Shown: one piece after another, positions 17,251 through 34,234 of the stretch | How the letters are laid out: every line of letters starts with the position of its first letter | Numbering within the stretch: the stretch's first letter is position 1 | Virus record (IMG/VR): IMGVR_UViG_3300048833_000443 | Coordinates: 1 to 57,628 of that record | Length of the DNA: 57,628 bases | From: a virus | Direction: 5' to 3' (one strand) | The notes under the pieces: model-generated | Databases searched by the model: none | Seen by the model: the letters and a program-made list of their open reading frames with translations, nothing else | What the model was told of the DNA's origin: nothing | Translations under genes and position numbers: made by a program

Positions 17251-18486
17251 TCACCGTTCGCTGGTGGCTGCCCGGAACGCGTTGGTGCAGTCGTAGGTCC
17301 ACTCACGCTCACCCGTCGGCTCACCCGGGTAGGTGGACGGGTTGCCCTCCAGAGCGCGTCGGATCCACGTGCCGATCCACTCACCGCAGTCCACCGGGAT
17401 GCCCTTGCCCCACGTGAGACGAAGACCGCTGGCACGCTCGAGTGGACGGATGCGCCAGTCGTCCGGGAACCCTTGGATGCGAGCGACCTCACGGTGAGTC
17501 AGGGTGCGATCCTCCGTGGGGTGCATGATGAGGTCGAGGCCGCCGCCGGTCACCACACGAGCCATCTTGTCACCACGCCACCGGATCATCTGGTTGTAGC
17601 CCATCATCCAGTCCTTGGCGATGAGCTTCTCCAGCATCGTTGGACCCCACGACTCGGGCAACGTGCCGTGAGCCTCGTAGTAGCGCTTCGCCACGGTGGA
17701 GATGATCTCCTTCTGACCCCACGTGATGTCCTCGCTGTGAAGAAGGTCGAGGGCACGGCCGATCGCAGGAGTACGACGCCACTGGACGCCGCACACGGCG
17801 CCGGTCACCGAGCGACGCGGTCGACTCCACCACGTGGGTGGGCGGCGGTACGGCTGCTTCTCCCAGGTGGACTCCAGGCCTTCGAGGTCGCCGATGACGT
17901 CCATGAGCGTCGGCACCCGAGTGACCTCGACCGGGTCGATGCCGAACGGGATGCGGGACACGACCCAGAAGTAGCGCTTGCGAATCGCCGCACCGCCGAG
18001 CGATGCGTTGTTGTGTAGCACGTGGTGGAGGTTCCACTGCATGCCCGTGTCGTACTCGAGCTTGGCGCGCAGGTTCTGCATCAGCTCCCGCCCGCCGCCC
18101 TTCTCGGAGTAGGCCTGCCCCACCGACTCGAACACCGCGATGTACGGCTGCGTCCGAGCAACGAACCACTCGAAGGCCCACATGCAGTGGTTCACCGGGG
18201 AGTCGGCGCCACGGAAGTCCTTCCTCGAGAGGAGGCTGAACCCAGAGCACGGCGGGTTGCCGAACACGACGTGCGCCGGGATCGGCGTCCAGTCCTCTCC
18301 GGTTCCGGTCGAGACGTCGGCCTCCCAGTCGTAGCCAAGGAGCTCACGGTTGGCTTCGCAGTTCGCAACGCCGAAGCCTCCCTTCATCTCCTTCTTGCCA
18401 ACGAGCTTGAAGCCGGCTCTCACCATGCCGAGGGTGAACCCGCCGGCGAATGCTTGGCAGTCCACAGCGTGGAACTGGTCCGTCAT
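17251..18486 (-). CDS. C5-cytosine DNA methyltransferase
   Basis: A 411-residue protein with the ordered C5-MTase motifs: I (FAGGFTLGMVRAGF, 13-26), IV with the catalytic Cys (GNPPCSGFS, Cys80), VI as FESV (residues 119-122) instead of the usual ENV, VIII (IRKRYFWVVSR), and X near the C-terminus (WGKGIPVDCGEWIG). These enzymes transfer methyl from SAM to C5 of cytosine. The Glu of motif VI is kept, so activity is plausible. It overlaps the next upstream gene (ATGA) and closes the sugar/modification cluster, so it may work with it or protect DNA independently. Confidence 0.85.
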   Translation of the reverse strand: MTDQFHAVDCQAFAGGFTLGMVRAGFKLVGKKEMKGGFGVANCEANRELLGYDWEADVSTGTGEDWTPIPAHVVFGNPPCSGFSLLSRKDFRGADSPVNHCMWAFEWFVARTQPYIAVFESVGQAYSEKGGGRELMQNLRAKLEYDTGMQWNLHHVLHNNASLGGAAIRKRYFWVVSRIPFGIDPVEVTRVPTLMDVIGDLEGLESTWEKQPYRRPPTWWSRPRRSVTGAVCGVQWRRTPAIGRALDLLHSEDITWGQKEIISTVAKRYYEAHGTLPESWGPTMLEKLIAKDWMMGYNQMIRWRGDKMARVVTGGGLDLIMHPTEDRTLTHREVARIQGFPDDWRIRPLERASGLRLTWGKGIPVDCGEWIGTWIRRALEGNPSTYPGEPTGEREWTYDCTNAFRAATSER

Positions 18487-18683
18487 GACACGTCCTCATC
18501 TCTCCATTCGTACCAGACCTCTCCTGAGGCCTGGAAGCAGTGGTGCGCCGGGTCACCTTGCTGCGCGTGATCGAACCGGCGGTGACACTTGCCTCGGGTC
18601 GATTCTGCCACGCATCGGCTGCCGATCGAATCCAAGGGATCCGGGCCCGGGTCTTGGATCCGACGCGGCTCCGGCAGCGTCAC
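18483..18683 (-). CDS. Small Cys/His-rich protein
   Basis: A 66-residue protein with C, then KCHRRFDH and PAHHC, a likely zinc-binding arrangement. The GTG at 18683 overlaps the stop of the pyrophosphatase gene, and the stop overlaps the methyltransferase start, so it is part of the modification operon. Function unknown. Confidence 0.6.
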   Translation of the reverse strand: MTLPEPRRIQDPGPDPLDSIGSRCVAESTRGKCHRRFDHAQQGDPAHHCFQASGEVWYEWRDEDVS

Positions 18684-19195
18684 GTTGCGCCGTCCTGGTA
18701 CACGTAGCCGCAGGGGCAGTACTCAACGGCGTCGCTGCTGTCGGTGATCGGGTCGAAACGCGACGTGGTCTTCCGATCACGCTTGCAGATCGGGCACTTG
18801 TCCAAGCCGGTGTACCCCTCCGCCTGGCGGTCGGCGTTCACGTTCCGCTTCTCCATGTAGCGGTCAGCGAACCACTGGGCGAGAGCCTCCATGTCCATCT
18901 GGCCGTCGGAGGTGGACGCGACATCGACGCCGGAGACCGTGAGCATGATGTTCATGAAGAAGTGCCAGGCATCCACCATCTCCTTCATCGCCGCCGCGTG
19001 GTCCACGTGGTTGCTCGACGCCCAGGGCTTCCAGCCGGTCTCCTGGAGCATCTCCATGAGCTCGTCGATCAGCGCGAGGACGTTCCAGCGAAGGAACTCC
19101 ATGCGCTCCTCCGGCAGCATCCGCGTGGGATCCTTCCCGAAGGACTCACGCTGCAGCTTGAGCTGCGCGACGAGCATGTCAGCCATGTCGGTCAT
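18680..19195 (-). CDS. All-alpha dNTP pyrophosphatase (dimeric dUTPase/dCTPase family) with zinc ribbon
   Basis: A 171-residue protein. Residues 30-90 carry the metal-binding helices of the dimeric dUTPase/MazG superfamily: ALIDELMEMLQETGWKPW and EMVDAWHFFMNIML. The C-terminal 40 residues add a CxxC...CxC zinc ribbon. The superfamily hydrolyses dUTP or dCTP to the monophosphate; T4 gp56, which removes dCTP so that hydroxymethyl-dCTP is used, has the same all-alpha fold class. Given the dCMP-hydroxymethylase-like gene at 32403-33275, a dCTPase role is attractive, but dUTP cannot be excluded. Confidence 0.7.
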   Translation of the reverse strand: MTDMADMLVAQLKLQRESFGKDPTRMLPEERMEFLRWNVLALIDELMEMLQETGWKPWASSNHVDHAAAMKEMVDAWHFFMNIMLTVSGVDVASTSDGQMDMEALAQWFADRYMEKRNVNADRQAEGYTGLDKCPICKRDRKTTSRFDPITDSSDAVEYCPCGYVYQDGAT

Positions 19196-19197
19196 GA

Positions 19198-20172
19198 TCA
19201 GGCTCCCGTCAGCTCGTCGTACACCCAGCGGTAGGTACGGGCGAGCCCGTCCTCGAGCGCGATGCTTGGCGACCAGCCGAGGTGCTGCTCGATGAGCTCG
19301 TTGTCGCTGTTGCGACCACGCACGCCGAGCGGCCCGTCGATGTACCGCCGTTCGAGGCGGACGCCGGCGATGCCCTCAACGATCGTGACGAGCTCGTTGA
19401 TCGTGACCATCCGATCGGAGCCGAGGTTGATCGGCTCGATGACATCGGACTCGATGAGGCGGATGGTGCCTTCGACGCAGTCGTCCACGTACATGAATGA
19501 ACGGGTCTGCTCGCCGTCGCCCCAGATGTCGATGGTGTGGTCTCCCGACAGCACCGCCTGGGCGACCTTCCGGCAGATTGCCGCAGGAGCCTTCTCCCGG
19601 CCGCCGTCGTAGGTGCCGAGGTCGCCGTACACGTTGTGGTACCGCGCCACGTGGCAGGTGGTGGAGGTCTCTTCGGTGATGTGGCCGCAGAGCCGCTCAC
19701 CGAACAGCTTCTCCCAGCCGTACCCGTCCTCGGGATCGGCGGGATACGCGTCACGCTCCTTGAGCCCGGGGATCTGCGCCTCGTCCTGGCGGTACGAGGG
19801 GTACACGCAAGCCGACGACGCGTAGAACACGTCGGGCACCTCAGCCTCCATCGCCGCCACCAGCGCGGCGGTGGTGGTCCTGGTCGTGAGCATGCACGCC
19901 AGCTTGTTCGTCTCGATGAAGCCCATGCCGCCCATGTCGGCGGCGAGGATGAAGACCCGCTCCGCGTCGTGGCTCAGGCTCTTGAGGAAGTCGAAGTTCC
20001 CCGGGTCCCCGACGTCGAACTCCTCGACCTGCAGGTCGCCGACGCGCTGGTGCCACTCCTCAAGCGGCTTCACGTCGGCGGTGACCACATGGTCACCTCG
20101 GTTCTTGAGCTCTCGGGAGAGGTGGCCTCCGATGAAGCCACCTCCTCCGAGAACGAGCGATGACGTGCTCAT
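19198..20172 (-). CDS. NAD-dependent sugar epimerase (GDP-mannose 3,5-epimerase-like)
   Basis: A 324-residue extended SDR protein: Rossmann GGGGFIG near residue 10, AADMGGMGFI, SSACVYPS, the catalytic YxxxK as YGWEK, then GREKAPAA, WGDGEQTRSF and GVRGRNSDN. The MGGMGFI, REKAPAA and RGRNSDN blocks are typical of GDP-mannose 3,5-epimerases, so the family call is strong. It should rework a nucleotide sugar; the true substrate is open. The start at 20172 has AAAGGATC upstream and overlaps the next gene (ATGA). Likely donor supply for the glycosyltransferase next door. Confidence 0.85.
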   Translation of the reverse strand: MSTSSLVLGGGGFIGGHLSRELKNRGDHVVTADVKPLEEWHQRVGDLQVEEFDVGDPGNFDFLKSLSHDAERVFILAADMGGMGFIETNKLACMLTTRTTTAALVAAMEAEVPDVFYASSACVYPSYRQDEAQIPGLKERDAYPADPEDGYGWEKLFGERLCGHITEETSTTCHVARYHNVYGDLGTYDGGREKAPAAICRKVAQAVLSGDHTIDIWGDGEQTRSFMYVDDCVEGTIRLIESDVIEPINLGSDRMVTINELVTIVEGIAGVRLERRYIDGPLGVRGRNSDNELIEQHLGWSPSIALEDGLARTYRWVYDELTGA

Positions 20173-21200
20173 GTGATGATCCTTTCGATGTCGATGACCC
20201 AGGCGTCGAAGGCCTCGCGGGTCTTGGTTGGGATGACGGTGGATGGGAGGCCGCGCAGCGCGTCGTACGCCTGCGTCATGCACGTGAGGACGTCCATGGA
20301 GTCGTACGAGACGTCCCGCAAGACGTCGGTGACCTGCTGCGTGTAGCGGTAGCCGTGGAGCTCGTTGTCGAGGTCGACCAGGAGGTCGTGGTCGTTGCGG
20401 TCTTGCCGGACGAACGGCGGGCCGTAGTGGACGGCGAACCCGAGGTGGTCCATGACGGAGCGCGCGAGGTAGCTCGCCCAGATGTCGTCGAACCGTCCGA
20501 CGCCGGGCCAGCACATCATGAGAGGCGCCAAGCTCGCGCGCCATCCTGTGTTCTGGCTGTTGAAGGGGCACCACGTGCCAGGCTGCACGACGATCCCGTG
20601 GAGGGCATGTGGCGCGTAGTGCGTGACGTGCGGTCGGCACGCCAGCCGTTCGATGGCGTCGATGTCCGGGTCGCCCAGCCACAGGCCGGCGACGACACCA
20701 ACCGGTGCCCGCTGGTCGTGCGGCTTGAGATCGCTGAACACGAACCGATCACGCATGGTGAGGGGAAAGCCGCGATGGAAGACGGGCGGTGAGGCGACGC
20801 CGCCGACGTTCCACCAGTCGAGCTGCTCGTCCACCATCCACTGTGCCTCGCCTTGGAGCGCGAGCAGCACCTCGTGGAAGTACACCTCCGGAGCGAGTGG
20901 GATGTTGTCGTCATCGACCGTGACGATGGTGTGCGCTCCTCGGGCGATGGCTTCGAGGATGGCGACGTTGCGTCGCTGGATCGAGCGCCACCCGATCGCT
21001 TCGGACGATGCCCAGGAGGTCTGCTGCTCTGGGCGAAGGTACACGTTCTCACCTGGGAGACGCTTGAGCGTGTGCTCGATGTCGTCGTGCGGGGAGATGG
21101 TGTCGCCGGTGACGATGATCACGTCACCGTCTTGGAGCCCTCGTCGGTAGTCCGCCAAGACCGTCGGGTCGTTGATGGTGGTCGTGATCAGTGCCTTCAT
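20169..21200 (-). CDS. UDP-arabinopyranose mutase / reversibly glycosylated protein (RGP)-like
   Basis: A 343-residue protein. By eye it aligns over its length with plant RGP/UAM proteins: the acidic triad DDD (96-98); RGFPLTMR (143-150, RGP has RGYPFSLR, whose first Arg is the autoglycosylated one); GLWL followed by a DPDID segment; and RFDDIW...DHLGF (236-254; RGP has RYDDMW...DHLGY). Plant UAM interconverts UDP-arabinopyranose and UDP-arabinofuranose. A DUF288/STELLO-type glycosyltransferase is the other reading. ATG overlaps the upstream stop (ATGA). Confidence 0.7.
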   Translation of the reverse strand: MKALITTTINDPTVLADYRRGLQDGDVIIVTGDTISPHDDIEHTLKRLPGENVYLRPEQQTSWASSEAIGWRSIQRRNVAILEAIARGAHTIVTVDDDNIPLAPEVYFHEVLLALQGEAQWMVDEQLDWWNVGGVASPPVFHRGFPLTMRDRFVFSDLKPHDQRAPVGVVAGLWLGDPDIDAIERLACRPHVTHYAPHALHGIVVQPGTWCPFNSQNTGWRASLAPLMMCWPGVGRFDDIWASYLARSVMDHLGFAVHYGPPFVRQDRNDHDLLVDLDNELHGYRYTQQVTDVLRDVSYDSMDVLTCMTQAYDALRGLPSTVIPTKTREAFDAWVIDIERIIT

Positions 21201-22501
21201 CGCTGGATCCCCATTCGTTGTTCGATCAGCTGCGCGTACCGCAGCTCCTCCGACGCAGCGTCGTAGAGACGCCGCTGCGCTCCTGCGAGCCACTCCCAGG
21301 TGTCTCGGCTGGTCGATACCGCCGCGATCCGCTTGGAGAGCTGCTCAGGGTCTTCTACCCGCAGCCACATGGCGAGGCTCGCGAGCTCATCATCGATGAC
21401 CTCTCCCTTCCTCACTTGGGCCAGCGTCGGGATGATGTGGCCCTGCGTGTCGTACTGCGGATGGAAGAAGCACACCGTGCCGGTCCCGAAGGCCTGCCAC
21501 GGCTTGGTCGTCGCCCAGCCCGAGCCGGACGAGGGCGTGGTGAAGGTTGCTGCAACCGATCGGAGTCGGTCGTAGTACACCTCGGAGGGCGCAGGCTCAA
21601 TGGACACGCCGAGCTCGGCTTGGCGCTCGGCGGGCCACTTCCCGTGGATGAACGCCGGCTGCTGCGGCAGCACCCAGTCGCGCATGGCGTCGAACCGGTT
21701 GTGCTTGACGTACGCCCGGGCCTCGTTGATGAAGAGCCCGAAGTGCTGCCGCCCCTCGAACGGTCCCATCTCCGTGGGCACGTGCTCAGGCGTGATGCCG
21801 CAGATCTCGAGGCGGGAGTACACGTAGCGCTGGGCAGACCTCCACACGTGTGGGTCGAGCTGCTCAGCTTCGAACCCGCACTCGGCCGGCGTGCGGGTGT
21901 CGGTGTATCGCTCCTGCTTGTCCTTGCGGGTGAAGTCGTACTGCCCGAGCACGGGATGGCGCAGCGGCCACTTGAGGTCCCGGGCCTTGATGTAGTTGCG
22001 AGGATCGGGGCAGAGCCAGATCTCCTCACGGGTCAGCGGGTCCTCCTGCCGGAAGGCGTTGATGCCTCGGACGATGTAAGACGCGTAGCGGACGAACGAG
22101 TCTTGCGGGTTGGTGACCTTCTCCCAGCCGGCACCCACGACCGGGATCGGCGTGTTGCTTGTGCCGTGCTGGCCGGTCCAGACGATGAGGTGATCCATCG
22201 AACGGAACCAGTCGAGCGTGAGCTCGTCGTGAACGGCGATGATGGTGGCGTGATCGGCGCCCTTCGTGCGGTCGCGAACGATGTCACGCCACGCAGTCCA
22301 CGGGTTGATGACGTTGGGCGGCATGCCCACGGTCGCCGGGTCTTCGCCGGAGTTGCGGCCGAGGATGTAGAACTCCACGTCCGGGTTCCGACGAGCGAGC
22401 GTCTTGAGGGTCAGCGGCGGCTCATCGTCGCCACCGACGGTTCCGAAGTTGTTCGGGTCGAGCGGCATGTTCCGCCCGATCTTGGCGTATCCTACGCGCA
22501 A
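21197..22501 (-). CDS. Probable glycosyltransferase (GT-B-like)
   Basis: A 434-residue protein, first gene of the sugar cluster. The N-terminal half has a Rossmann-like pattern (RNPDVEFYILGRNSG, ADHATIIAVHDELT). The C-terminal half has TTPSSGSGWATTKPWQAFGTGTV, then a helix-rich end, as in the donor-binding domain of GT-B enzymes. I infer transfer of the sugar made by the two following gene products, probably to a modified base; protein or surface targets are possible. TTG start with AAAGGA seven bases upstream. Terminator hairpin 22528-22564 lies before it. Confidence 0.6.
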   Translation of the reverse strand: MRVGYAKIGRNMPLDPNNFGTVGGDDEPPLTLKTLARRNPDVEFYILGRNSGEDPATVGMPPNVINPWTAWRDIVRDRTKGADHATIIAVHDELTLDWFRSMDHLIVWTGQHGTSNTPIPVVGAGWEKVTNPQDSFVRYASYIVRGINAFRQEDPLTREEIWLCPDPRNYIKARDLKWPLRHPVLGQYDFTRKDKQERYTDTRTPAECGFEAEQLDPHVWRSAQRYVYSRLEICGITPEHVPTEMGPFEGRQHFGLFINEARAYVKHNRFDAMRDWVLPQQPAFIHGKWPAERQAELGVSIEPAPSEVYYDRLRSVAATFTTPSSGSGWATTKPWQAFGTGTVCFFHPQYDTQGHIIPTLAQVRKGEVIDDELASLAMWLRVEDPEQLSKRIAAVSTSRDTWEWLAGAQRRLYDAASEELRYAQLIEQRMGIQR

Positions 22502-22527
22502 GGTGTCGTCCTTTCATCGTGGCCGAA

Positions 22528-22564
22528 GCCAGGAGGGGGCAGGGGAACGAACCCCCCTCCTGGC
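22528..22564 (-). terminator. Terminator-like hairpin after the DUF669-like gene
   Basis: A perfect 12-bp stem (GCCAGGAGGGGG with its complement) and 13-base loop, 28 bases after the stop of 22592-23455 and 27 bases before the glycosyltransferase start. It may reduce read-through into the sugar cluster. Confidence 0.65.
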
Positions 22565-22591
22565 GAACGGACCAGCCGAAGTGCCTTCGTG

Positions 22592-23451
<860 letters not shown>

Positions 23452-23455
<4 letters not shown>

Positions 23456-24216: not shown

Positions 24217-24506
24217 CAGTCCTCGAACCGCTCGGTCTTCGGCCGCTTGGCGACGAACGCCAGGCCGCCACGAGTGAGCACCCGCTTGACGTCGTTGATG
24301 TTGGCGCCCGGCGCGGTGTACGTGACCACCGCGTCGCACACGCCGGACGACGCGCTGATGTTGATGAGCTCGCCGGTGAACTTGTCCGACGCCTCGGTGA
24401 TGATGGTCTCGAAGTCGTCGATGTTCTCCTCGTTGATCACGATGGGGACCGTGACCTTCTGGAGCTTCTTCTTCGAGCCTTCGGTGCTATTGGTGAACTG
24501 TCCCAT
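24216..24506 (-). CDS. Hypothetical protein of the recombination block
   Basis: A 96-residue protein with a basic N-terminus and alternating strands and helices (VTVPIVINEENIDDFETII). No known motif. Lies between the nuclease and the Sak4-like ATPase and is coupled to the latter. Confidence 0.6.
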   Translation of the reverse strand: MGQFTNSTEGSKKKLQKVTVPIVINEENIDDFETIITEASDKFTGELINISASSGVCDAVVTYTAPGANINDVKRVLTRGGLAFVAKRPKTERFED

Positions 24507-24512
24507 GGTGGG

Positions 24513-26063
24513 CTACTCCTCATCCTTGCGGTCGAGGTCATCCTCGTACCGCTTGTGCGGGTTGATGACGACGAGGTTCTCGGTGATGTAGTCCTCCACG
24601 CGACTCCCGTCGTCGAACATCGTGCAGAGGTGGAAGAAGTCGCAGTCCCAGGTGCACTGCGACATGGGGTTGGGGTACGCCACCTGGTTGGCGTCCATGC
24701 CGGCGTCGAGCCGGCGCTTGGTCTCGAGGAGGTCCATGATCTCCCCGGTGATGCGGACGTAGTACGACCGCAGCACGTTGATGGAGTGGCGAACCTCGAC
24801 GCGATCGAAGAAGGGTGGCTTGGCAGTGCCGGTCCGCTTGACCTTGCGGAGCATGTTGTAGAGGCCACCGTCCGTGCGCTCCCCGCCATCGGCGCCGGAG
24901 GCCAGCAGGCCCAGCCACTCGAGCAGGTGGTAGTGCATCATCTGCTCGTCCATGTGCAGCGTCTTCATGGGCGTCGTGAGGTTGCCCACCGTCTTGTGAT
25001 CGACGAACAGCCGAGCGCCGTCGGTCGTCCGTCGGATGCGCACATCGAGCTTGCCCAGGAGAGCGATCTGCTCGCCCTGCGGCCCGGTCAAGTCGATCGG
25101 GACCAGCACCCTGGACTCCGGCGCGACCACCTCGAGGAACTGATCGACGCCGGTCTCGGCGAGCCACTCGATGTACCCCTCCACCATGGCCCGGCAGAGA
25201 TCGGCCTGCTTGTCGAACTCGTCGAGCTGGTCCTGCATCGGCTGCGTTCCTAGCAGGAGGTCGCGATCCTCCTTGAGCACGGTCTCGAGCGTCTCCAGCG
25301 GGTTCGCTGGGGTCTCGCCCGCCGGCACGTAGTACGCCTGCAGAGCGCGATGGACGCGGGTGCCGATCGAACGGACGCCGATGAACTCCGGCGTCGGCAG
25401 CCCGAGGCTGCGGTAGTAGCCCAGGTACCACTTGCGCCGGCAGCGCTTGTACGTCCGCAGCTCCGAGTTGGAGAAGGCGTACATCCCCTCCGGGATGTCG
25501 AAGGAAGGCTCGGCGGGTGCGGCCTCGGCGGAGTCCTCCGCAGCGCTGGGTGGCGCCGGGTCGGAGTCCGGGGCCGCACCCGCCTCGCCGGCGGGGGGAC
25601 CACCGGCGGCGGGAGGACCACCGGCGGCGGGAGGCGTGCCGATGTGGCTGCCGAGCTTGTTGGGCGTGGCGGCGACGTGGCCGCAGACGCAGGTCTTGCC
25701 TTCGGGATCGTTGGGGCACACGCCGTGCGACACGATGTCCTCGGGGTCGACGATGGTGTCCTCGACCTCATCCTCGCTCAGGGCGTGGATGTCACCCCCG
25801 GGGTTGGGCTGCGCCGCCGGCGCGTTAGGCTCCGGTGCCGTGGTGCCGTCCGAGCTGGACGCGCTTCCCTCCCCGGGGGTGACGTGCGGCGCGAGCGCCG
25901 CGATCTCATCGGGCCGAGGATCTCGACCCTTCTCGATGTTGCTGATCTTCGCAGGCGTCAGCCCGGTCAGCTCAGCGAACGCTTGACGTGACATCTTCCG
26001 CCGCTTGCGTGCGGCTTCGACGTCGGCTCCTGTGATGGACACGGTGGTGGTTCCTTCCGTCAT
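24513..26063 (-). CDS. RecB/Cas4-like PD-(D/E)XK nuclease with an N-terminal HTH domain
   Basis: A 516-residue protein. Residues about 12-55 form an XRE-type helix-turn-helix (RQAFAELTGLTPAKISNIEK). A long Pro/Ala/Gly linker with a Cys-containing patch (CPNDPEGKTCVCGH) follows. From about 200 it is a RecB-type nuclease: LGKLDVRIRR...FVDHKT supplies the PD-(D/E)XK residues, and CTWDCDFFHLC near the end resembles the Fe-S cysteines of Cas4/AddB-type nucleases. Expected role is 5'-3' or end resection with the Sak4-like ATPase. The HTH fusion is unusual. ATG overlaps the helicase stop (ATGA). Confidence 0.75.
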   Translation of the reverse strand: MTEGTTTVSITGADVEAARKRRKMSRQAFAELTGLTPAKISNIEKGRDPRPDEIAALAPHVTPGEGSASSSDGTTAPEPNAPAAQPNPGGDIHALSEDEVEDTIVDPEDIVSHGVCPNDPEGKTCVCGHVAATPNKLGSHIGTPPAAGGPPAAGGPPAGEAGAAPDSDPAPPSAAEDSAEAAPAEPSFDIPEGMYAFSNSELRTYKRCRRKWYLGYYRSLGLPTPEFIGVRSIGTRVHRALQAYYVPAGETPANPLETLETVLKEDRDLLLGTQPMQDQLDEFDKQADLCRAMVEGYIEWLAETGVDQFLEVVAPESRVLVPIDLTGPQGEQIALLGKLDVRIRRTTDGARLFVDHKTVGNLTTPMKTLHMDEQMMHYHLLEWLGLLASGADGGERTDGGLYNMLRKVKRTGTAKPPFFDRVEVRHSINVLRSYYVRITGEIMDLLETKRRLDAGMDANQVAYPNPMSQCTWDCDFFHLCTMFDDGSRVEDYITENLVVINPHKRYEDDLDRKDEE

Positions 26064-27949
26064 GCCGCCCACAGCGGCGTGTTCTCGATGGTGCTGATCT
26101 CGGCATCGTACGCCGAGGTGTCTTGGCCCTGTGCTGCGAGAACGGCCCGATCACGGACCAACTCCTCGAGGCGCTCGGCCTTCTCGTAGAGACGCATGAT
26201 CTGCTTCTCTTCGACTGTGCCTGGCGATACGACGTCGATGATGTGGACGTGATCGCCGTGAACCTCGGAGCCGATGCGGTGCACCCGGTCCTCGGCTTGC
26301 TTGTTCTCCAGCATCGACCAGCTCCGCTGCAGGAAGACGATCGTGTCGGCCTGCGCCTGCAGTCCATCGAGTCCAGTCCCGCCGGCCTTGATCGTGAAGA
26401 GGAAGACCCGAGCCTTACCTGCGATCCAGTCGGCCTTCGCAGCCTCGCGCTGGTCGTCGGTCATCCCGCCCACGATCTTGCGGTACGGCACGCCCTGCTT
26501 GTCGAGGCGGGCGCAGGCGAGCTCGATCAGCTGCCGCGACTCAGCGCACACGACGAACGGCTTGGCGATGTCGGTGAGCAAGCCATCGAGGACGTCCAGC
26601 TTGGACGAAGGATCGGTGAGTCGGACCTCACCGGCCTCGTTCACTTCGCAGTACGCACTGGAGAACTGCAGGAGGCGCGTGTTGGTGGTCAGGTTGTTGG
26701 TGGAGATGACCGCGTTGCCATCGTCATCGAACATCACCATGTCCTTCTCCATCGAGCGGTACGCACGCTCCTGCTTGGCTGACATCTCAGCGTAGCGAAC
26801 GTCACGCACCTTCGAAGGCAGGTACTTGAGCACGAGCTCCTTGGGCATCCGTCGGAACCGAGGATCGAGGATGCGGAAGAACTCATCCCGAGTGTCGGGG
26901 CGAACGCCGATGATGTCGAGCCCGCCGAAGTCGTTCCAGCTCATCAGAGCGTAGCGGTCGAGGTACGAGGTCTTGGTCGGGTAGTCCTCAGGAGCGATGC
27001 CGTGCATGATGGGCCACAGGTCGCCGATGTGGTCGGCGATCGGCGTGCCGGTGAGCGCCCAGGAGTACCACACCGAGTCTTGGTGCTGCACCGCCCAGAT
27101 CCCTCGGGTCTGCTTGGACTTGGGATCCTTCATGCGGTGCGCCTCGTCGACGACCACGGTGGTCCACGGGACGCGGTTCAGCTCACGCTCGTGAACCTCA
27201 CACTTGGACTCAGGGACTGCGTCATCGTCGCCGTCCTTCGGGCCGCCGTGCTGCGGGCAGCGCTTCAAGCGGATGCTCCCGTAGCCTGCGAGCCGGGAGT
27301 GAAGACGCACACTCTCCCAGTTGATGATCACGGCGACGGGCTGTCCGTCGGCGATCAGCTTCTCCGCCTCCTCGAACAGCTTGCGTCGCTTGGTGGCTGA
27401 CCCGGTCACGACGAAGACGGTGACGTGCGGAGCCCACTTGGCGAACTCGCCTGCCCAGCCCTTGCCACTCTTGATGGACCCCTTCGTCGAGTTGGGGACG
27501 ATGCCGATGAACGGCCAGGGCCATCCACCAAGCGCTTCGACTCGAAGGAGTGCCGCGATGACTTGCACCGTCTTGCCGGTGCCCATGTCATCGCCGAGGA
27601 GACCACGTTGCGCGGTGACGAGCCACAGCGTGCCAGGGTCTTGGAACTCGAGCAGCTTATCTCCGAGGAAGCTGTCGACACGGCGGGTCTCTGCACGCAG
27701 CTGGTTGGAGGGCGTGATGCGGTTCGTCATCTCTTGGTTCGCCCAGGTGACCAGGTCTGGGCCGATGGTCAGGTCCTGCCCGAACACACCTCGCATGGTC
27801 TGGCACGTGCCCCAGGAGAGGGGGAACGTCCACACCTTGCGCTGGCCGTTCCAGCGCGCGCCTGGGACCTGCTTGATGCGGTCCTTGTCTCGGTACTCAG
27901 TGTCAACGATGATGAGACCCTCATCGATGACTGCCTCAGCGTGTGGCAC
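26060..27949 (-). CDS. SNF2-family (SF2) DNA helicase with HARP-like N-terminus
   Basis: A 629-residue protein. The N-terminal 60 residues (PGARWNGQRKVWTFPLS) resemble a HARP domain. The SF2 core follows: motif I GDDMGTGKT, II DEAH, III LTGTP, and in the second lobe TGLDG and VI QAEDRVHRIG. Such phage SNF2 proteins are thought to remodel replication forks or strip proteins from DNA. First gene of the recombination block. Confidence 0.85.
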   Translation of the reverse strand: MPHAEAVIDEGLIIVDTEYRDKDRIKQVPGARWNGQRKVWTFPLSWGTCQTMRGVFGQDLTIGPDLVTWANQEMTNRITPSNQLRAETRRVDSFLGDKLLEFQDPGTLWLVTAQRGLLGDDMGTGKTVQVIAALLRVEALGGWPWPFIGIVPNSTKGSIKSGKGWAGEFAKWAPHVTVFVVTGSATKRRKLFEEAEKLIADGQPVAVIINWESVRLHSRLAGYGSIRLKRCPQHGGPKDGDDDAVPESKCEVHERELNRVPWTTVVVDEAHRMKDPKSKQTRGIWAVQHQDSVWYSWALTGTPIADHIGDLWPIMHGIAPEDYPTKTSYLDRYALMSWNDFGGLDIIGVRPDTRDEFFRILDPRFRRMPKELVLKYLPSKVRDVRYAEMSAKQERAYRSMEKDMVMFDDDGNAVISTNNLTTNTRLLQFSSAYCEVNEAGEVRLTDPSSKLDVLDGLLTDIAKPFVVCAESRQLIELACARLDKQGVPYRKIVGGMTDDQREAAKADWIAGKARVFLFTIKAGGTGLDGLQAQADTIVFLQRSWSMLENKQAEDRVHRIGSEVHGDHVHIIDVVSPGTVEEKQIMRLYEKAERLEELVRDRAVLAAQGQDTSAYDAEISTIENTPLWAA

Positions 27950-28024
27950 CTTGCGTCCTCCGTCGATCCGTCGAGCTCACTGTAACAGGAATCGCAGCGG
28001 CTGTTGTGCACACTGCGATGAGGA

Positions 28025-28060
28025 AGGCCCGGACCAGGGAGCAACCCCCAGTCCGGGCCT
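28025..28060 (-). terminator. Terminator-like hairpin after the small regulator gene
   Basis: Perfect 10-bp stem (AGGCCCGGAC with its complement) and 16-base loop, starting ten bases after the stop of the 28070-28312 gene on the minus strand. Confidence 0.7.
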
Positions 28061-28069
28061 CAGCCTTCG

Positions 28070-28312
28070 TCAGATCACCTTGATGCTAGCGATCTTGTTG
28101 GCTCGGTGCGCCTCACGGTGCGTGACCCGGTCGACCTCGACGAAGCCGAGACTCTCCAGGTAGAGCACCACAACGCTCACCGCCTTGTACGGGACTTCCG
28201 ACTCATGAGCGAGATTCCCGAGCACCTCGCCGGCATCGCCCTGGGAGTAGACACCCTCATGTTCGAGGATGACATCCAGGACCTTGCTGGCGTACTCATC
28301 GATCTTGGCCAT
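28070..28312 (-). CDS. Small winged-helix DNA-binding protein
   Basis: An 80-residue protein that reads as a winged-helix domain: helix (SKVLDVILEHEG), a second helix (AGEVLGNLAHES), a recognition-type helix (KAVSVVVLYLESLGF) and a basic wing (VDRVTHREAHRANK). Single-gene unit with promoter, leader and terminator hairpin, the same layout as the regulator at 16750-17169. Target unknown. Confidence 0.6.
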   Translation of the reverse strand: MAKIDEYASKVLDVILEHEGVYSQGDAGEVLGNLAHESEVPYKAVSVVVLYLESLGFVEVDRVTHREAHRANKIASIKVI

Positions 28313-28383
28313 CTTCGTCTCTCCGTCCTGCCGGGTACTTCCCGACGAAGTCAAGTTTACCACAACGACTTGCGCTGTGTCAA
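28313..28383 (-). promoter_or_regulatory. Promoter and structured leader of the small winged-helix gene
   Basis: On the minus strand: -35 TTGACA (28378-28383), 18-base spacer, -10 TAAACT (28354-28359). The leader has a hairpin (CGGG/CCCG, loop AAGTA) before AGGACGGAGAGAC, a variant of the shared box. Confidence 0.7.
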
Positions 28384-28832
28384 CTCATTCCTACGAGAAC
28401 GCCGCGACGTGCCAGAGCGATCATCACCTGGCGCGTCGCGTCATTGTGGTGCCCGCCTCCACCCTTCGTCCACCAGCCGGCGTTGCGCAGCTTCTCATTG
28501 GTGGAGAACCGCTTGGCCTCCGACGCACCCGTGAGCTCAAACACATGATCGTACCGACGAGCGAGCCAACGTAGGACGCCGATCTGCTCGAGGCTCCACT
28601 GGCGGTCGCCCTGCGCCTTCTTGGCGGTGTTCATCGTGATGCGGAAGTCCTCGCATGCGATGACGCCGTGGACGTCCGCTCGCCACAGCCGCTCGGCCCA
28701 GTCCTGCGCGTGGTCGAGGAAGACGTCCATAGGCATCTCCTTCGCGCCGACCCAGGTCCCAGCGTCGTAGCGAGACACGCCGGTCATCTTCCCTGGGTCG
28801 GCACCTAGGATCCAGACGGGGTCACTCGACAT
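28380..28832 (-). CDS. RuvC-like Holliday junction resolvase (RNase H fold)
   Basis: A 150-residue protein with the ordered acidic residues of RuvC-type nucleases: ILGADPGKMTGVS (first Asp), VIACEDF (Glu), and GGHHNDATRQVMIAL (final His/Asp). It should resolve branched DNA before packaging. The ATG at 28832 overlaps the preceding gene by 11 bases. Confidence 0.75.
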   Translation of the reverse strand: MSSDPVWILGADPGKMTGVSRYDAGTWVGAKEMPMDVFLDHAQDWAERLWRADVHGVIACEDFRITMNTAKKAQGDRQWSLEQIGVLRWLARRYDHVFELTGASEAKRFSTNEKLRNAGWWTKGGGGHHNDATRQVMIALARRGVLVGMS

Positions 28833-29265
28833 CGAGCTCAACCGTACCAGAGGGCACGGCTGGGCGCGGCATGACACCCCACGCTTCGATGGCGGACTCG
28901 CCCACGTCCATCAGGGTGGTGATGCACTTGCCGATGGCTTGCTGCGCCTTCGCCTCGAGGATGCGAGCGTCGCGGTCACGTCGTGCGCCAAGAGCATCAC
29001 CTCCGAGTTCTCGATGAGCCTCGGCAGCAGCTCTTGCTTCAGCTGCACCTCGCATGAACTCCACGGCCCGATCGAGGTACTGCTCCACCTGGCGACGGGG
29101 CAGGTCATAGTCCTTCATGACGCCTGTGTGCGATGGCAGCCCACCTGGCTGGCTGCCGAACTTGTCGTCGATGTATGACTGCTCGGCGGCCAGCCACTTG
29201 AGGAGTTCGTAGCGACCACGGCGGCCACCCGTTGGGAGAACGATGTCTCCGTACCAGTGCCCCAT
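28822..29265 (-). CDS. Hypothetical protein
   Basis: A 147-residue protein with a conserved-looking N-terminus (GHWYGDIVLPTGGRRGRYEL) and a long charged helical region (RQVEQYLDRAVEFMRG). Lies between ThyX and the resolvase. No family recognised. Confidence 0.6.
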   Translation of the reverse strand: MGHWYGDIVLPTGGRRGRYELLKWLAAEQSYIDDKFGSQPGGLPSHTGVMKDYDLPRRQVEQYLDRAVEFMRGAAEARAAAEAHRELGGDALGARRDRDARILEAKAQQAIGKCITTLMDVGESAIEAWGVMPRPAVPSGTVELDVE

Positions 29266-29267
29266 CG

Positions 29268-30122
29268 TCAGACCTTGCGGGTCCCGGGGATCCACTCGCC
29301 GTCGGCGTTGACCTCGTAGTCCGCGAACAGGAGGGGGCACTCGTGACGCATGCGCTCAGCCACCTGCTGGAACACGATGCGGATCTCCTCCTCCGCCGCC
29401 AGGCTCGTGCGCATCTCGATGACGTGCCGCAGCGTGCGGATGTTCGCCGACCAGGTCATCATCGTGGAGAGACCGATCGGGGCCAGCCGGCGCAGCGCCG
29501 ACGTGACTTCCTTCTTGTAGTGGAACGGCACGCCCTCGTCGTCCAACCCGAAGGCTTCGGCAGCCTTCATCTGAAAGTCCTCGAGCAGCTCAACGATGTT
29601 GACGATCGCCTCAGCCATCGGCCGTGCGTTGACCACTCCCGTGTCGTCGGGATCGCGGTCGTGGATGATCTTGCTCGGATCGTTGAGGATTGGCGGGATG
29701 CGCACGCCCAGGTCGGTGAGGCGGACGTACCGCAGCGACTCCTGGGAGATGGCGACGCCGGTTCGATGACGCACCAGCTCGTGGGTGAAGACCCGGGACA
29801 CGTCCTGGAACACGAAGGTGAACTGCGCGTGCTCCAGCACCGAGCCGTGGCCGACGTCGATGATGTTACGCAGGTACTCACCGGTGTCCTCTCGAACCTT
29901 GGTGACGTTGGCGTTGAGGCCGGCGTCCCAGGATCGGTAGCAGCCACGGCCGGCGAACTCCACGAGGAGCTCAGGGTCCGACGCAACCGCCGGGGTCTTG
30001 AGGGTCGGCCCGACACGGCTGAGCCACGCCTCACCACCCACGTCGTTGAGGTACCGCGCCACCTCGCCCCAGTTGAGCTGAGGCTGTGCGATGAGGTACA
30101 CGGCAGGAGTCGTCTCGCGCAT
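29268..30122 (-). CDS. thyX: Flavin-dependent thymidylate synthase
   Basis: A 284-residue protein of ThyX type. The signature segment is RHRTGVAISQESLRY, a variant of the RHRxxSxNExSxR motif, preceded by VLEHAQFTFVFQDVSR (His and Arg for FAD/dUMP). ThyX converts dUMP to dTMP using methylene-tetrahydrofolate, FAD and NADPH. The dCMP deaminase nearby supplies dUMP. With ThyX present, the TS-like protein at 32403-33275 is free for another reaction. Start at 30122 with GGAAG six bases upstream. Confidence 0.9.
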   Translation of the reverse strand: MRETTPAVYLIAQPQLNWGEVARYLNDVGGEAWLSRVGPTLKTPAVASDPELLVEFAGRGCYRSWDAGLNANVTKVREDTGEYLRNIIDVGHGSVLEHAQFTFVFQDVSRVFTHELVRHRTGVAISQESLRYVRLTDLGVRIPPILNDPSKIIHDRDPDDTGVVNARPMAEAIVNIVELLEDFQMKAAEAFGLDDEGVPFHYKKEVTSALRRLAPIGLSTMMTWSANIRTLRHVIEMRTSLAAEEEIRIVFQQVAERMRHECPLLFADYEVNADGEWIPGTRKV

Positions 30123-30124
30123 GG

Positions 30125-31900
30125 TTAGCTTCCCTTCATGCCCCAACGTGGGGCGATGTCTACGCCCGCAGTCAGCGGGACGGTGAATAGATCGCGCTCT
30201 TCCATGACGTCGCGGATAGTCACGGAGACGTCCTGGACGAGGTCCGCCGGCACGTCGAAGATGACCTCGTCGTGCACGGGCAAGATCATGTAGTCGCCAA
30301 GGCCGGCGTTGTCGAGCTCCACCAGCTTGCGCTTGAGCACCTCGGCGGCTGTGCCTTGGATCAGGTAGTTCACGAGGGCGTACTCCTTGCCCTCATCCGC
30401 GACGTGGCGGCGGCCCGTGAGGGGGCTGACCACGTACGACTGCCCTTCGACGGATCGTCGCTGCTTGGCGACCTGATCCACGGCGCGCTGGAACGTCTTG
30501 ATGCCCGGGAACTTGCTGTGAAGCGCATCCCAGAACGGCTTGCCCTGCGTCTCCTCGATGCCGGCGGTCATGCAGAACTTCCGGAGGCCTGACCCGTAGG
30601 CGATGGCGTAGATGGCGTTCTTCGTCAGCTGCCGACGCGGATCCTTCTTCTCAATGGTCGGGTCGCCGTAGATCTCACGAGCCAGGTTGGTGAAGAAGTC
30701 TCCTTCAGCGAATGCCGCTCGCATGCCTTCGTCGCCGCAGAGGTGAGCGAACATGCGAGCCTCGATCTGATCGAAGTCGCACATCACGAGCAGGTTCCCG
30801 TCTCGTGGGATGAAGCAGTTGCGCACTGCGATGGCAAGTGGGTTGTCGTCGGACTTGCGAGGCAGCGTCTGAAGAGCCGGGGTGTCTACGCTCATGCGAC
30901 TCGTGCGAGCCTCACACGTGTTGATGTTCGGGTGAAGGAAGCCGTCCTCATCTGCGAACGCGAGGAAGTTCTCGAGGTAGGTGCCGGCGAGCTTGCGCGT
31001 TCGTCGGTACTGCAGGACCGCAGCTGCGAGCGGGTGTCCCAGGTTTGCCTCGAGGACCTCGGCATCGAGTGCGAGGCGCTTGCCACTCTGCGTCATCTTG
31101 GTCAGGTGGCAGCCGTCGGCCTGCAGCCGCTCGATGATCTTGACATCCGAGCCTGGTGTGAGGTCGTAGTGCTCGCCGGTCCAGTGCTCGACCTCGGCGA
31201 GGTTGACGTGGAACGCGTTGAGCGTTCCTTGGGTGAAGTCCCGGTCGATGCGAGCGCCCTTCTGCTCCATCGCCAGTGCGATCCACTGGGCCGCCATCTC
31301 AAGCTCGTACGCGACTCGTGGGCCGGCGTCGAGCAGCGGCTGGAAGTGGTCGAAGATGCGACACGTCAGCACCGTGTCGAGCCCGCCGTAGAACCAATAC
31401 CAGTGGAAGTCCACGGGCACGGTCGCCCACGTCCACTTGTTGTCCGCCATGGCGTCGTGGAGGACCTGCTGGGCGGCGGCAGCACGGCGGTCGATGTACT
31501 TGGCCGTGAGTGACTTGAGGGCGGCGGACTGCGTCGAGTCGATGACCCGCGCCATCATCATCGTGTCGTGGATCCTCGAGCGATCGAGCTTGTGTCCGAG
31601 CTCGCGTTCGATCAGCGCGGTGTCGTACTTGGCGTTGTGCATGACGATGTCACAGCCGACGCGGTCCAGCGCCTCGATGGCGACGCCGCCCCACCGATCG
31701 AACGGGATGGCCCAAGCTTGGTTGCGATCCCCGAACTGGATGAGACGGATGCGGTCCTTGAACTTGTCAAGGCCGGTCGTCTCGGTGTCGACACCGATGA
31801 CGTCGTGCGGCTCGGAGATCCACTGCATGAACCTCGTCGCCATGAGCACCGAGTCCACGAAGTGAACGTTCACGTTGGAGAGTGCGGACGCCTCGGTCAT
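30125..31900 (-). CDS. polA: Family A DNA polymerase (PolA-like)
   Basis: A 591-residue protein. The N-terminal 3'-5' exonuclease has GVDTETTGLD and HNAKYDTAL. The polymerase has motif A CDFDQIEARMFAHLCGD, motif B KNAIYAIAYGSG and motif C PVHDEVIFDV. No 5' nuclease domain, as usual in phages. It replicates phage DNA with the primase-helicase. The ATG at 31900 overlaps the dCMP deaminase stop (ATGA). Confidence 0.92.
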   Translation of the reverse strand: MTEASALSNVNVHFVDSVLMATRFMQWISEPHDVIGVDTETTGLDKFKDRIRLIQFGDRNQAWAIPFDRWGGVAIEALDRVGCDIVMHNAKYDTALIERELGHKLDRSRIHDTMMMARVIDSTQSAALKSLTAKYIDRRAAAAQQVLHDAMADNKWTWATVPVDFHWYWFYGGLDTVLTCRIFDHFQPLLDAGPRVAYELEMAAQWIALAMEQKGARIDRDFTQGTLNAFHVNLAEVEHWTGEHYDLTPGSDVKIIERLQADGCHLTKMTQSGKRLALDAEVLEANLGHPLAAAVLQYRRTRKLAGTYLENFLAFADEDGFLHPNINTCEARTSRMSVDTPALQTLPRKSDDNPLAIAVRNCFIPRDGNLLVMCDFDQIEARMFAHLCGDEGMRAAFAEGDFFTNLAREIYGDPTIEKKDPRRQLTKNAIYAIAYGSGLRKFCMTAGIEETQGKPFWDALHSKFPGIKTFQRAVDQVAKQRRSVEGQSYVVSPLTGRRHVADEGKEYALVNYLIQGTAAEVLKRKLVELDNAGLGDYMILPVHDEVIFDVPADLVQDVSVTIRDVMEERDLFTVPLTAGVDIAPRWGMKGS

Positions 31901-32406
31901 GTCAACTCCAGAACGTGAAGGCCTGAGTCCTTGAGGAGCTTGATGCTGCCGCTCGGGTCGCGATGCTTGTCCCGCTCCTCGACCCGCATGACGACCATCC
32001 GTAGCCCGGAGTTCGCCACAAGCTTGGCGCACGTCCGGCACACAGCGCTCGTGACGTAGATCGCGCCGCCCTCACGCTCGCGCCGGTCACAGAACATCAG
32101 GGCGTTGGCCTCGGCGTGGATCGTCAGGCAGTCGTCGTAGTGGATGCCCGGTACGGCATCGGGTTGCGCTCGCGGGCAATCCACCTCGCACGAGGGGTTG
32201 CGCCGCATAGGGCGGATCGCAGACCCTGGCCGAAGCGGCGTCGTGAGACCGGCGGGGAAGCCGTTGTACCCGGTTGCCACGACGCGGTTGGTCGGGTCGA
32301 CGATGACGGCTCCGATCTGGCGCCTGGAACATGGCGATCGCTTGGCGATGACGTCGGCCACCTCCATCCACGTCTCCGACCAGTCGGGTCGGTCTGGGTA
32401 GATCAT
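31897..32406 (-). CDS. dCMP deaminase
   Basis: A 169-residue protein with the zinc deaminase motifs: HAEANAL (proton-shuttling Glu) and TSAVCRTCAKL (two Cys ligands). It has the extra N-terminal Cys/His segment usual for dCMP deaminases (CEVDCPRA). It makes dUMP for ThyX and also balances the dCMP pool used by the neighbouring TS-like enzyme. ATG at 32406 overlaps the upstream stop. Confidence 0.88.
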   Translation of the reverse strand: MIYPDRPDWSETWMEVADVIAKRSPCSRRQIGAVIVDPTNRVVATGYNGFPAGLTTPLRPGSAIRPMRRNPSCEVDCPRAQPDAVPGIHYDDCLTIHAEANALMFCDRREREGGAIYVTSAVCRTCAKLVANSGLRMVVMRVEERDKHRDPSGSIKLLKDSGLHVLELT

Positions 32407-33275
32407 CGGACGAACTCGTTGAGAGAGTCGCGCCACCAAGGATGCGGCGTTGCGTAGGTGTCCTCATCGCGCTGCTCGAGAAGGATCTGTGCGTCGTCCT
32501 CGAGGTGGCGCCACGGCGAGAAGGCCGACCCGAGGTCGCGGATGCCTCGTGGCGTGTTCGGTCGTGATGCGGCGGCGGGGTACTTGAGCATGCCGATCGC
32601 AGGGAAGTCGCGCTCGTAGGCGTGGAGGCTGACGGCGTGGTGGTAGTACGAGCCGGCCTGCACACCCAGGGAGTGGGCAACCGTCAGCTGCAGCTGCGTG
32701 AACTGGAACGCGTCGTACGCGAGTCCCCACCACACGTCGTTGGATCGCATGGTGACGTGAAGCTGCAGCTTCCCCTCACGGATGAGGAACATCAGCATCG
32801 TGGTGCACGGGTAGTCGTGCTTACCATCGAAGTTGAGGTCGAGCTCCGGTCGCCACAAGACGATGAGGGCCTGTCGACTGTCGGGATCACGCTTGAGACG
32901 GGCGACGACGATCTCAGCTTGGTGCACGTCGTCTCCCTCACCACGGCTGTCGAGTCGGACACGATCGCCGTACGCGCCCCAGAACCGGCCGCCGTCCATG
33001 AACTGCTCGAAGTTCTTGGAGATGCGGACCATCAGCTCGGGATCGGACCGACCGCCGATGAGCTGCAACGCCTCGGCGGCGGCGATGGCGGGGTTGAGCT
33101 TGCGGCCCACGCCGATCGGCAACACGTCGGTGGGGTCCAAGACCTCGATGGTCACGTCCGTCAGCTCATGGGTGAGCAGCCCGCGAGGTCGGACGCTGCG
33201 CCCCTCCAGGACGACGCGTCGACACACGTCCACGTAACCGGCGCGAAGGTTGGGAACGGTCATGCTGGTCGCCAT
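32403..33275 (-). CDS. Thymidylate synthase-fold enzyme, probable dCMP hydroxymethylase
   Basis: A 290-residue TS-fold protein. The nucleophile is in DYPCTTMLMF (Cys157), followed by MRSNDVWWGLAYDAF (Arg177, Ser178, Asp180, Asp188) and SLHAYERD. In TS the residue at Asp188 is the Asn that reads the uracil ring; Asp at this place is the hallmark of T4-type dCMP hydroxymethylase, and the His after the catalytic Cys in TS is Thr here. With ThyX present, I infer 5-hydroxymethyl-dCMP (or another C5-modified dCMP) as product. The ATG at 33275 has GAGAGGA upstream; the ATG at 33263 would overlap the kinase stop by four bases. Confidence 0.75.
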   Translation of the reverse strand: MATSMTVPNLRAGYVDVCRRVVLEGRSVRPRGLLTHELTDVTIEVLDPTDVLPIGVGRKLNPAIAAAEALQLIGGRSDPELMVRISKNFEQFMDGGRFWGAYGDRVRLDSRGEGDDVHQAEIVVARLKRDPDSRQALIVLWRPELDLNFDGKHDYPCTTMLMFLIREGKLQLHVTMRSNDVWWGLAYDAFQFTQLQLTVAHSLGVQAGSYYHHAVSLHAYERDFPAIGMLKYPAAASRPNTPRGIRDLGSAFSPWRHLEDDAQILLEQRDEDTYATPHPWWRDSLNEFVR

Positions 33276-34234
33276 GAGCGAAGGTCCTCTCCAGTGTTGA
33301 GTGCTGAGATGATCGTGCGGGCGTAGAGCGCGCCGGACTTGTTGTGGAACCGCCGGATGTACTGCGGGTGCGGCACCGCACCAAGTGGAACGCGCCCGGT
33401 GAGTCCTCGCTCGTGCAAGGAGCGACACGCTGCCTCGTAGGCTGCGTTGCCCAGGGCGACGATCGGGGGCCGTGCCAGCGAGCACCACAGCTCGTAGACG
33501 TCCTCCTCACAAGCGTTGGCGATGCCGATCGAGGTCTCAGACCCGAGGACAGGTAGCAGGTGCTCGAGCATGAACCGCCCGGAGGTTGCGCCTGTTGGCA
33601 CGAACGCTGCGTGGTACGCCTCCGGGTCGTTGCGCCGCTCACCGAGGATCAGGTAGTCCGGAGCGCTCGATCCGATGTACGTGGTGAAGCGACGCAGGTG
33701 GTTCGTGTGCAGCCACCTGGAGTACGCGTCCTCCACGATCTCTTCGACCAGCGGGATCTTGTGATCGTGCCCAGTGCAGTTCTCAGGATCGGTGCAGCCA
33801 ACGTGCATGGTGGGCATCACGTCCGATGAGATGGCTGTCTCGTACGTGTCGTAGATCGCCGGCAGGTGCGTGACGTCCACCATGTCGTCGCCTCGAGCCG
33901 CCACTCTGTCGGCGATCAGCTCGAGAGGTGGACAGAGGTACACCACCATGGCGCCTCGAGCGACGAGGAACGCATCGATGTGCCAGCGCCCAACGACGTC
34001 TAGCTTCGACTCACCTCGGAAGATCGGTCCGTAGACCAGCTCTCCGATGTGCCAGCGATCGGCGATGATCGGCGTGACGCCGTCCCAATCCGCCAGACGC
34101 TCCTCGTACTCGGTGAACGGGTCGCTACGAAGCGGACCGCTGTGCAGCTCGATCGCGTCGGGCATCCGTGCCTTGAGCCTCGCAGCGAGCGTGGTCTTGC
34201 CGGCACCATCCGAGCCTTCGAGGATGATGATCAT
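33260..34234 (-). CDS. Nucleotide kinase fused to a uracil-DNA-glycosylase-like domain
   Basis: A 324-residue two-domain protein. Residues 1-180 form a P-loop kinase of thymidylate-kinase type: Walker A EGSDGAGKT (6-14), ADRWHIGEL, and a lid-like VAARGDD. Residues about 187-312 resemble the UDG superfamily: LGERRND in place of the catalytic GExPG, GATSGR (215-220), VALGNAAYEA and VPHPQY (in place of the HPS motif). The missing catalytic residues suggest base binding without excision. It could phosphorylate modified dCMP, like T4 gp1, or a base in DNA, like hydroxymethyluracil DNA kinases. Start fixed by the GACGGAAGGAC box. Confidence 0.7.
   Translation of the reverse strand: MIIILEGSDGAGKTTLAARLKARMPDAIELHSGPLRSDPFTEYEERLADWDGVTPIIADRWHIGELVYGPIFRGESKLDVVGRWHIDAFLVARGAMVVYLCPPLELIADRVAARGDDMVDVTHLPAIYDTYETAISSDVMPTMHVGCTDPENCTGHDHKIPLVEEIVEDAYSRWLHTNHLRRFTTYIGSSAPDYLILGERRNDPEAYHAAFVPTGATSGRFMLEHLLPVLGSETSIGIANACEEDVYELWCSLARPPIVALGNAAYEAACRSLHERGLTGRVPLGAVPHPQYIRRFHNKSGALYARTIISALNTGEDLRSWRPA

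Follow-up and report, generated by a model that had tools for sequence, protein, structure and literature searches.

The IMG/VR virus record IMGVR_UViG_3300048833_000443, here analyzed as a single window comprising the whole record (57,628 bases, 65% GC, a tailed phage), probably encodes a cytosine-hypermodification pathway that would add a sugar derived from GDP-L-galactofuranose to the phage DNA by means of a glycosyltransferase (GT) resembling the DNA beta-glucosyltransferase (BGT) of phage T4. That cytosine is the modified base and that it carries a sugar are well supported. The identities of the genes, their catalytic residues, the cytosine-type pocket of the thymidylate synthase (TS)-fold enzyme, the GT fold and the co-occurrence of these last two in related phages are read directly from sequence and fold, and from them we infer all of the chemistry, including the exact sugar and the choice between a hydroxymethyl and a hydroxy group.

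In the pathway envisaged, the pyrophosphatase would strip dCTP (and dUTP), yielding dCMP, on whose C5 the TS-fold enzyme would place a one-carbon unit to give 5-hydroxymethyl-dCMP; the kinase would begin the conversion of this nucleotide into the triphosphate, to be incorporated by PolA, with dCMP deaminase and ThyX providing dTMP. Host GDP-mannose would be turned by a GDP-mannose 3,5-epimerase (GME) into GDP-L-galactose, whose ring would be contracted to GDP-L-galactofuranose by an MtdL-like mutase, and the BGT-like GT would then join the furanose to cytosine in DNA, a modification that would hinder attack by restriction or CRISPR nucleases.

Glucose, gentiobiose and a pentose are the sugars known on phage cytosine; we know of no earlier case of a hexofuranose attached to a DNA base, as L-galactofuranose would be. 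No description of galactofuranose on phage DNA was found in the literature searched (open-access papers only), in which the predicted furanose donor of this variant of T4-type cytosine glycosylation had not been tied to DNA before. If the prediction is true, host GDP-mannose would be the source of a furanosyl-cytosine that is new both as a DNA base and as a counter-defence, and two enzyme activities would be new as well, that of a DNA furanosyltransferase and that of a phage GDP-sugar mutase.

The TS-fold enzyme and its probable target base

The TS-fold enzyme keeps the catalytic Cys, present in every aligned member of the family, and carries Asp (D187) and Thr at the positions equivalent to N177 and H147 of the Escherichia coli enzyme. 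The original prediction had described a dCMP-selecting Asp, which the alignment indeed places at position 177, where T4 gp42 has Asp as well. The Asp177/Thr147 pattern is common to all 27 aligned sequences except SPO1 gp29, which shows Asn at both positions and whose product is hydroxymethyl-dUMP. Together with the DSL-LC01 enzyme, SPO1 gp29 is the phage protein nearest to the window enzyme; such a near relative being a dUMP enzyme indicates that residue 177 decides the base. Hydroxymethyl-dU as in SPO1 was ruled out on this position. In MetaGPA, positions 177 and 147 were the single residues that correlated most strongly with modified cytosine (PMC8670742).

The supply of dTMP by ThyX would free the TS-fold enzyme from dTMP synthesis, and the enzyme is devoid of a C-terminal tail resembling the KGKMAV of T4 td. 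The Asp177/Thr147 pair and the separate ThyX bear out the earlier proposal that cytosine is targeted at the nucleotide level by a dedicated pathway, and make cytosine a well-supported candidate for the modified base.

Asp is also found at E. coli position 169 in the window enzyme and in all aligned cassette enzymes, within an RSND motif in most of them, and likewise in T4 gp42, while RB69p048 reads RSQN at this site. The arabinosylating phages RB69 and NP use a TS-family 5-hydroxy-dCMP synthase, their arabinose sitting on 5-hydroxycytosine (PMC13390438). The RSND motif is suggestive of a 5-hydroxymethyl rather than a 5-hydroxy product. The best PDB relative of the window enzyme is the CMP hydroxymethylase MilA (E 8e-20), although MilA acts on CMP for mildiomycin synthesis. 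The window enzyme is regarded here as a predicted dCMP hydroxymethylase.

Predicted donor synthesis and sugar transfer

The mutase gene overlaps the GME gene by 4 bases. It had been described as a homologue of UAM/RGP, and its family membership stands (PF03214), but not its identity as UAM, since MtdL chains match it with E 4e-39 and plant UAM with only 0.054; a profile search also puts MtdL nearest. Arabinose formed via a plant-type UAM was rejected as first choice on this same comparison. MtdL converts GDP-L-galactopyranose into GDP-L-galactofuranose, with T13 and S86 as key GDP-selecting positions (PMC9937993). Both are kept in the window mutase (T7 and S73), as are I15, D40, R90, D195, S228, Q229, R257, D260, R289 and H292, the DDD motif (D96-D98) and the autoglycosylated Arg159 (R143 in the window).

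The GME homologue proposed earlier proved to be a genuine one, the next non-GME short-chain dehydrogenase/reductase (SDR) matching it at only 8e-21. In the alignment to 8sg0 it keeps the residues matching S143/C145/Y174/K178/K217/R306, with roles described for the catalytic triad, the Cys145/Lys217 acid-base pair and Arg306 (PMC8787198). Because an MtdL-like mutase is paired here with a real GME, GDP-L-galactofuranose from host GDP-mannose is the leading candidate donor, displacing the arabinose that had been favoured as the likeliest sugar. The same pairing occurs in the A201A antibiotic route of Marinactinospora, also with GDP-L-galactofuranose, the product predicted for the window; that route feeds an antibiotic, whereas the one in the window would feed a phage DNA-modifying GT.

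The GT showed no Pfam, PHROG or NCBIfam match, and its 27-row profile matched nothing among PDB sequences. Searched with the GT profile, bacterial and archaeal genomes yielded no relative, and the gene therefore gives no hint of the host. An AlphaFold (AF2) model built from 26 aligned sequences (pLDDT 92.9) allowed the structure-based comparison with known DNA glycosyltransferases that had been suggested originally: the top six folds among 350,542 PDB chains were all T4 BGT (E 5e-10 to 1e-8, TMt 0.60-0.70, identity 9-11%), generic GT-B enzymes scored about a hundredfold or more below them, and the best annotated viral fold match was "DNA beta-glucosyltransferase". A BGT-like fold at ~10% identity supports, short of proof, a DNA-acting GT that would move the furanose onto modified cytosine in DNA. 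With this fold, the GME and the mutase, the earlier notion that the transferred group is a sugar with a donor unlike that of T4 is retained. The presence of a predicted glycosyltransferase gene was likewise upheld, although its assumed start at ATG 22468 was dropped in favour of TTG 22501, given the AGGA site upstream of the latter and the N-terminus MRxGYxKxGR shared by relatives.

Several observations weigh against this proposal. In the window mutase, MtdL residues N42 and D87 are both replaced by Ile and the Mn-binding H287 by Gln, a position at which the compared phage homologues carry Gln or Ser; D87N and D87S abolish the activity of MtdL (PMC9937993). The change at D87 implies that the substrate may differ from exactly GDP-L-galactose, and the differences at D87 and the metal ligand across phage homologues make another L-configured furanose possible. 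Given the loss of H287, the enzyme is better termed a member of a GT75-related phage clade than MtdL. GME, moreover, can yield GDP-L-gulose too. Finally, fully replaced cytosine would leave little substrate for the C5-methyltransferase, whose residues P78, C80, E120, R169 and R171 are invariant in 12 homologues and which is apparently intact; its presence might reflect incomplete modification, protection of any remaining dC or an altered activity.

Related cassettes and competing explanations

A GT profile scan of IMG/VR gave 34 loci, to which the mutase scan added 4 more, a few loci sharing a record. Besides the window, ~37 viral contigs contain GT relatives, which in most cases sit between RecA/SSB and dCTPase/C5-methyltransferase genes. 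Where covered, the cassette order is helicase, PD-(D/E)XK nuclease, RecA, SSB, GT, donor genes, dCTPase and C5-methyltransferase, with kinase, TS-fold enzyme, deaminase and PolA upstream; the mutase lies ahead of the GT in some loci. Distant members (XG4, L041-L049) show another arrangement, most of them retaining TS-fold enzyme, GT and C5-methyltransferase. Among virus records of at least 25 kb, the TS-fold enzyme is present in 22 of the 24 bearing the GT (18/20 + 4/4), against 2/36 bearing the mutase but no GT, both being weak matches in records >300 kb (Fisher p 5e-12, or 3e-11 after collapsing near-duplicates, in trials that are not independent because the records are related).

Kinase, TS-fold enzyme, dCTPase, GT and C5-methyltransferase form a core conserved among related phages, while the donor genes beside the GT are swapped. 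This donor slot contains (i) mutase and GME in the window, L016, L017, L018, L044, L053 and L055, (ii) the mutase alone in L011, L031, L033 and L034, (iii) the mutase and another SDR in L023, L026, L036, L038, L039, L050 and L054, or (iv) nucleotidyltransferase and APH-like genes, fused or apparently split, in L019, L020, L030, L032, L037, L041, L045 and XG4, the types of L020 and L030 being assigned by reading open reading frames, without a family match. On the GT tree, donor types are clustered, requiring 8 changes where 4 would be the minimum, a value as low as this being reached in 0/200 shuffles. Homologues of RB69 p053/p052, the nucleotidyltransferase/APH genes accompany GTs ~41-50% identical to that of the window; considering this homology and the arabinose-5-phosphate isomerase homologue found in two of these records, such relatives may transfer arabinose.

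The same order is displayed by DSL-LC01 (OQ999401), with kinase, TS-fold enzyme (40%), deaminase, PolA, helicase, RecA, SSB, GT, mutase, dCTPase and C5-methyltransferase. In contrast, its GT is unrelated and its donor slot holds a FAD-type UDP-galactopyranose mutase (PF03275 E 5e-30) unrelated to the MtdL-like gene; neither a GME nor an MtdL-like gene occurs in the examined region. That an unrelated mutase accompanies the shared core suggests that a furanose donor recurs independently. In this locus (L001, OQ999401.1 84381-99618), two candidate transferase genes flank the mutase, annotated only as glycosyltransferase and hypothetical.

L-galactose shares the C2-C4 configuration of D-arabinose, L-galactofuranose being D-arabinofuranose plus one carbon, and the same GT family could therefore use both sugars; on stereochemical grounds only, this shared ring configuration could explain the donor-slot swap. 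A more specific proposal, advanced tentatively, is that L-galactofuranose would sit on the cytosines and that one BGT-like GT family would take D-arabino-configured furanoses from interchangeable donor modules, either GME with the GT75-like mutase (for GDP-L-galactofuranose) or the nucleotidyltransferase/APH arabinose module. The swappable slot across the ~37 contigs suggests a constant base chemistry combined with a sugar that differs between related phages, a variation expected if sugar-reading type IV restriction systems drive change. The GT family provides a sequence handle for finding further such phages.

Among other explanations, the same cytosine pathway might add D-arabinose as in RB69/NP, or L-fucofuranose, L-gulofuranose or another NDP-furanose, its mutase having drifted. 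The substitutions at D87, N42 and H287 would fit this, as would the RB69-type donor genes and isomerase homologues accompanying related GTs; nonetheless, GME and the MtdL-like mutase, instead of a nucleotidyltransferase/APH module, lie beside the window GT, and GME is retained in its GT neighbours L016, L017 and L018, so that a different sugar appears unlikely. Slightly less probable again is a TS-fold product that is 5-hydroxy-dCMP, with the sugar directly on the C5-O, the linkage of RB69 and NP and probably also of Thanatos. Certain relatives do have donor genes in common with RB69, a phage whose 5-hydroxy-dCMP synthase belongs to the TS family (PMC13390438), but the window enzyme agrees with T4 gp42 at Asp169, and MilA is a hydroxymethylase.

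It is very unlikely that a protein or a host surface glycan is the target of GME, mutase and GT, the TS-fold gene being an unrelated neighbour: MtdL-like genes are indeed common in TS-less viruses, such as cyanophages with heptose and fucosyltransferase-like genes, but the GT is BGT-like, co-occurs with the TS-fold enzyme across records and is located among replication genes, not tail genes. The least probable explanation is ordinary nucleotide metabolism, in which the enzyme would be a plain dTMP synthase or a 5-methyl-dCMP maker as in Xp12. Databases do annotate it as thymidylate synthase, and N177D in TS yields 5mdCMP (PMC8670742); against this stand Asp177/Thr147, a separate ThyX for dTMP and the missing td-like tail, and the link with the GT would be left unexplained.

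Under the preferred reading, a GDP-L-galactofuranose-derived sugar on cytosine, the window shares with the T4 glucosyl-hydroxymethylcytosine pathway (gp56, gp42, gp1, BGT/AGT) the pyrophosphatase family, the dCMP-type TS-fold enzyme, the dNMP kinase and the BGT-like fold. It differs in that the GTs are ~10% identical, by fold alignment only, in that T4 takes host UDP-glucose whereas the window donor would come from phage GME and mutase, and in having a C5-methyltransferase in the cassette and ThyX in place of the ThyA-type td. With the pentosyl-cytosine pathway of RB69/NP/Thanatos it has in common a cytosine-type TS-fold enzyme and a phage-made donor, but it lacks the RB69-type nucleotidyltransferase/APH module carried by some cassette relatives, reads RSND instead of RSQN, and its predicted sugar is a hexofuranose instead of a pentose.

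Additional features were recorded in some of these loci. Pseudoalteromonas phage XG4 (L004, PP712099.1 1-7550), which is unannotated, has a cytosine-type TS-fold enzyme (Asp177) in a block that also contains a nucleotidyltransferase-APH fusion, two GT-like genes, a C5-methyltransferase and a dNTP pyrophosphatase. The mutases of the epimerase-less L031, L033 and L034 have Pro and Asn at MtdL positions 13 and 40, respectively; since Pro13 is the plant UDP-type residue, their donor may be a UDP-sugar. MtdL-like mutases also occur widely in viral contigs that lack a TS-fold enzyme (L002, L003, L012, L051-L052, L056-L127), the mutase scan having returned ~200 candidate loci, the cyanophages included, which suggests that they serve glycan synthesis there as a separate function.

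Gene layout and accessory enzymes

Essentially all called genes of the window lie on the minus strand, and all those named in the original prediction were recovered there, at or near the positions it gave (Table 1). The pathway genes form two tight blocks with neighbours spaced -16 to +2 bases, one with kinase, TS-fold enzyme, dCMP deaminase, PolA and ThyX, the other with GT, mutase, GME and pyrophosphatase, the C5-methyltransferase being 193 bp past the end of the latter.

Table 1. Positions and supporting matches of the pathway genes and landmark genes in the window
Feature	Positions	Strand	Evidence
C5-cytosine DNA methyltransferase homologue	17251-18486	-	PF00145 E 5e-18; motifs PPC, ExV, RxR intact
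All-alpha dNTP pyrophosphatase, dUTPase_2/MazG type	18680-19195	-	PF08761 E 2e-11; phrog_18650 E 3e-23
GME	19198-20172	-	E 3e-89 to solved GME 8sg0
GT75-like NDP-pyranose mutase	20169-21200	-	PF03214 E 2e-7; MtdL chains E 4e-39
GT, T4 BGT-like GT-B fold	21197-22501	-	predicted structure and fold search
DUF669/ssDNA-binding protein, landmark flanking the cassette	22592-23455	-	family matches
PD-(D/E)XK nuclease with N-terminal helix-turn-helix fusion	24513-26072	-	PF12705 E 7e-18; HTH_31 E 6e-8
ThyX	29268-30122	-	PF02511 E 4e-39; TIGR02170 over its cut-off
dCMP deaminase	31897-32406	-	phrog_174 E 7e-42
TS-fold enzyme, predicted to modify dCMP at C5	32403-33275	-	thymidylate-synthase family E 2e-22; pocket residues
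dNMP kinase-like domain and C-terminal UDG/SMUG1-like domain	33260-34234	-	YorR/TMK relatives
Tape measure	40241-44059	-
Capsid	49124-50188	-
Terminase	55611-57179	-

Megablast of the 17-36 kb region against phages gave zero matches. Considering that the closest named-phage cassette is that of the "Actinomycetia phage" DSL-LC01, together with the GC content, the label of actinophage is plausible. No gene for TET-type oxidation of 5-methylcytosine was found among the scanned window proteins, some small open reading frames being outside the scan. With few exceptions, related contigs spanning the region have the C5-methyltransferase alongside the cassette (L001, L004, L011, L016-L055), and the pyrophosphatase, a putative dCTPase/dUTPase like T4 gp56, occupies the same slot in related cassettes.

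The protein originally described as a kinase has the expected dNMP-kinase-like domain, predicted here to act on 5-hydroxymethyl-dCMP, but that description was incomplete, as an extra C-terminal domain of ~140 residues weakly resembles the uracil-DNA glycosylase (UDG) superfamily (Pfam UDG E 0.23 at 243-306; Foldseek human SMUG1 E 3e-3, prob 0.97-0.99). SMUG1 excises hydroxymethyluracil, the deamination product of hydroxymethylcytosine, and a clean-up role is for this reason possible for the domain, which is apparently missing from the kinases of some relatives (L132, L152).

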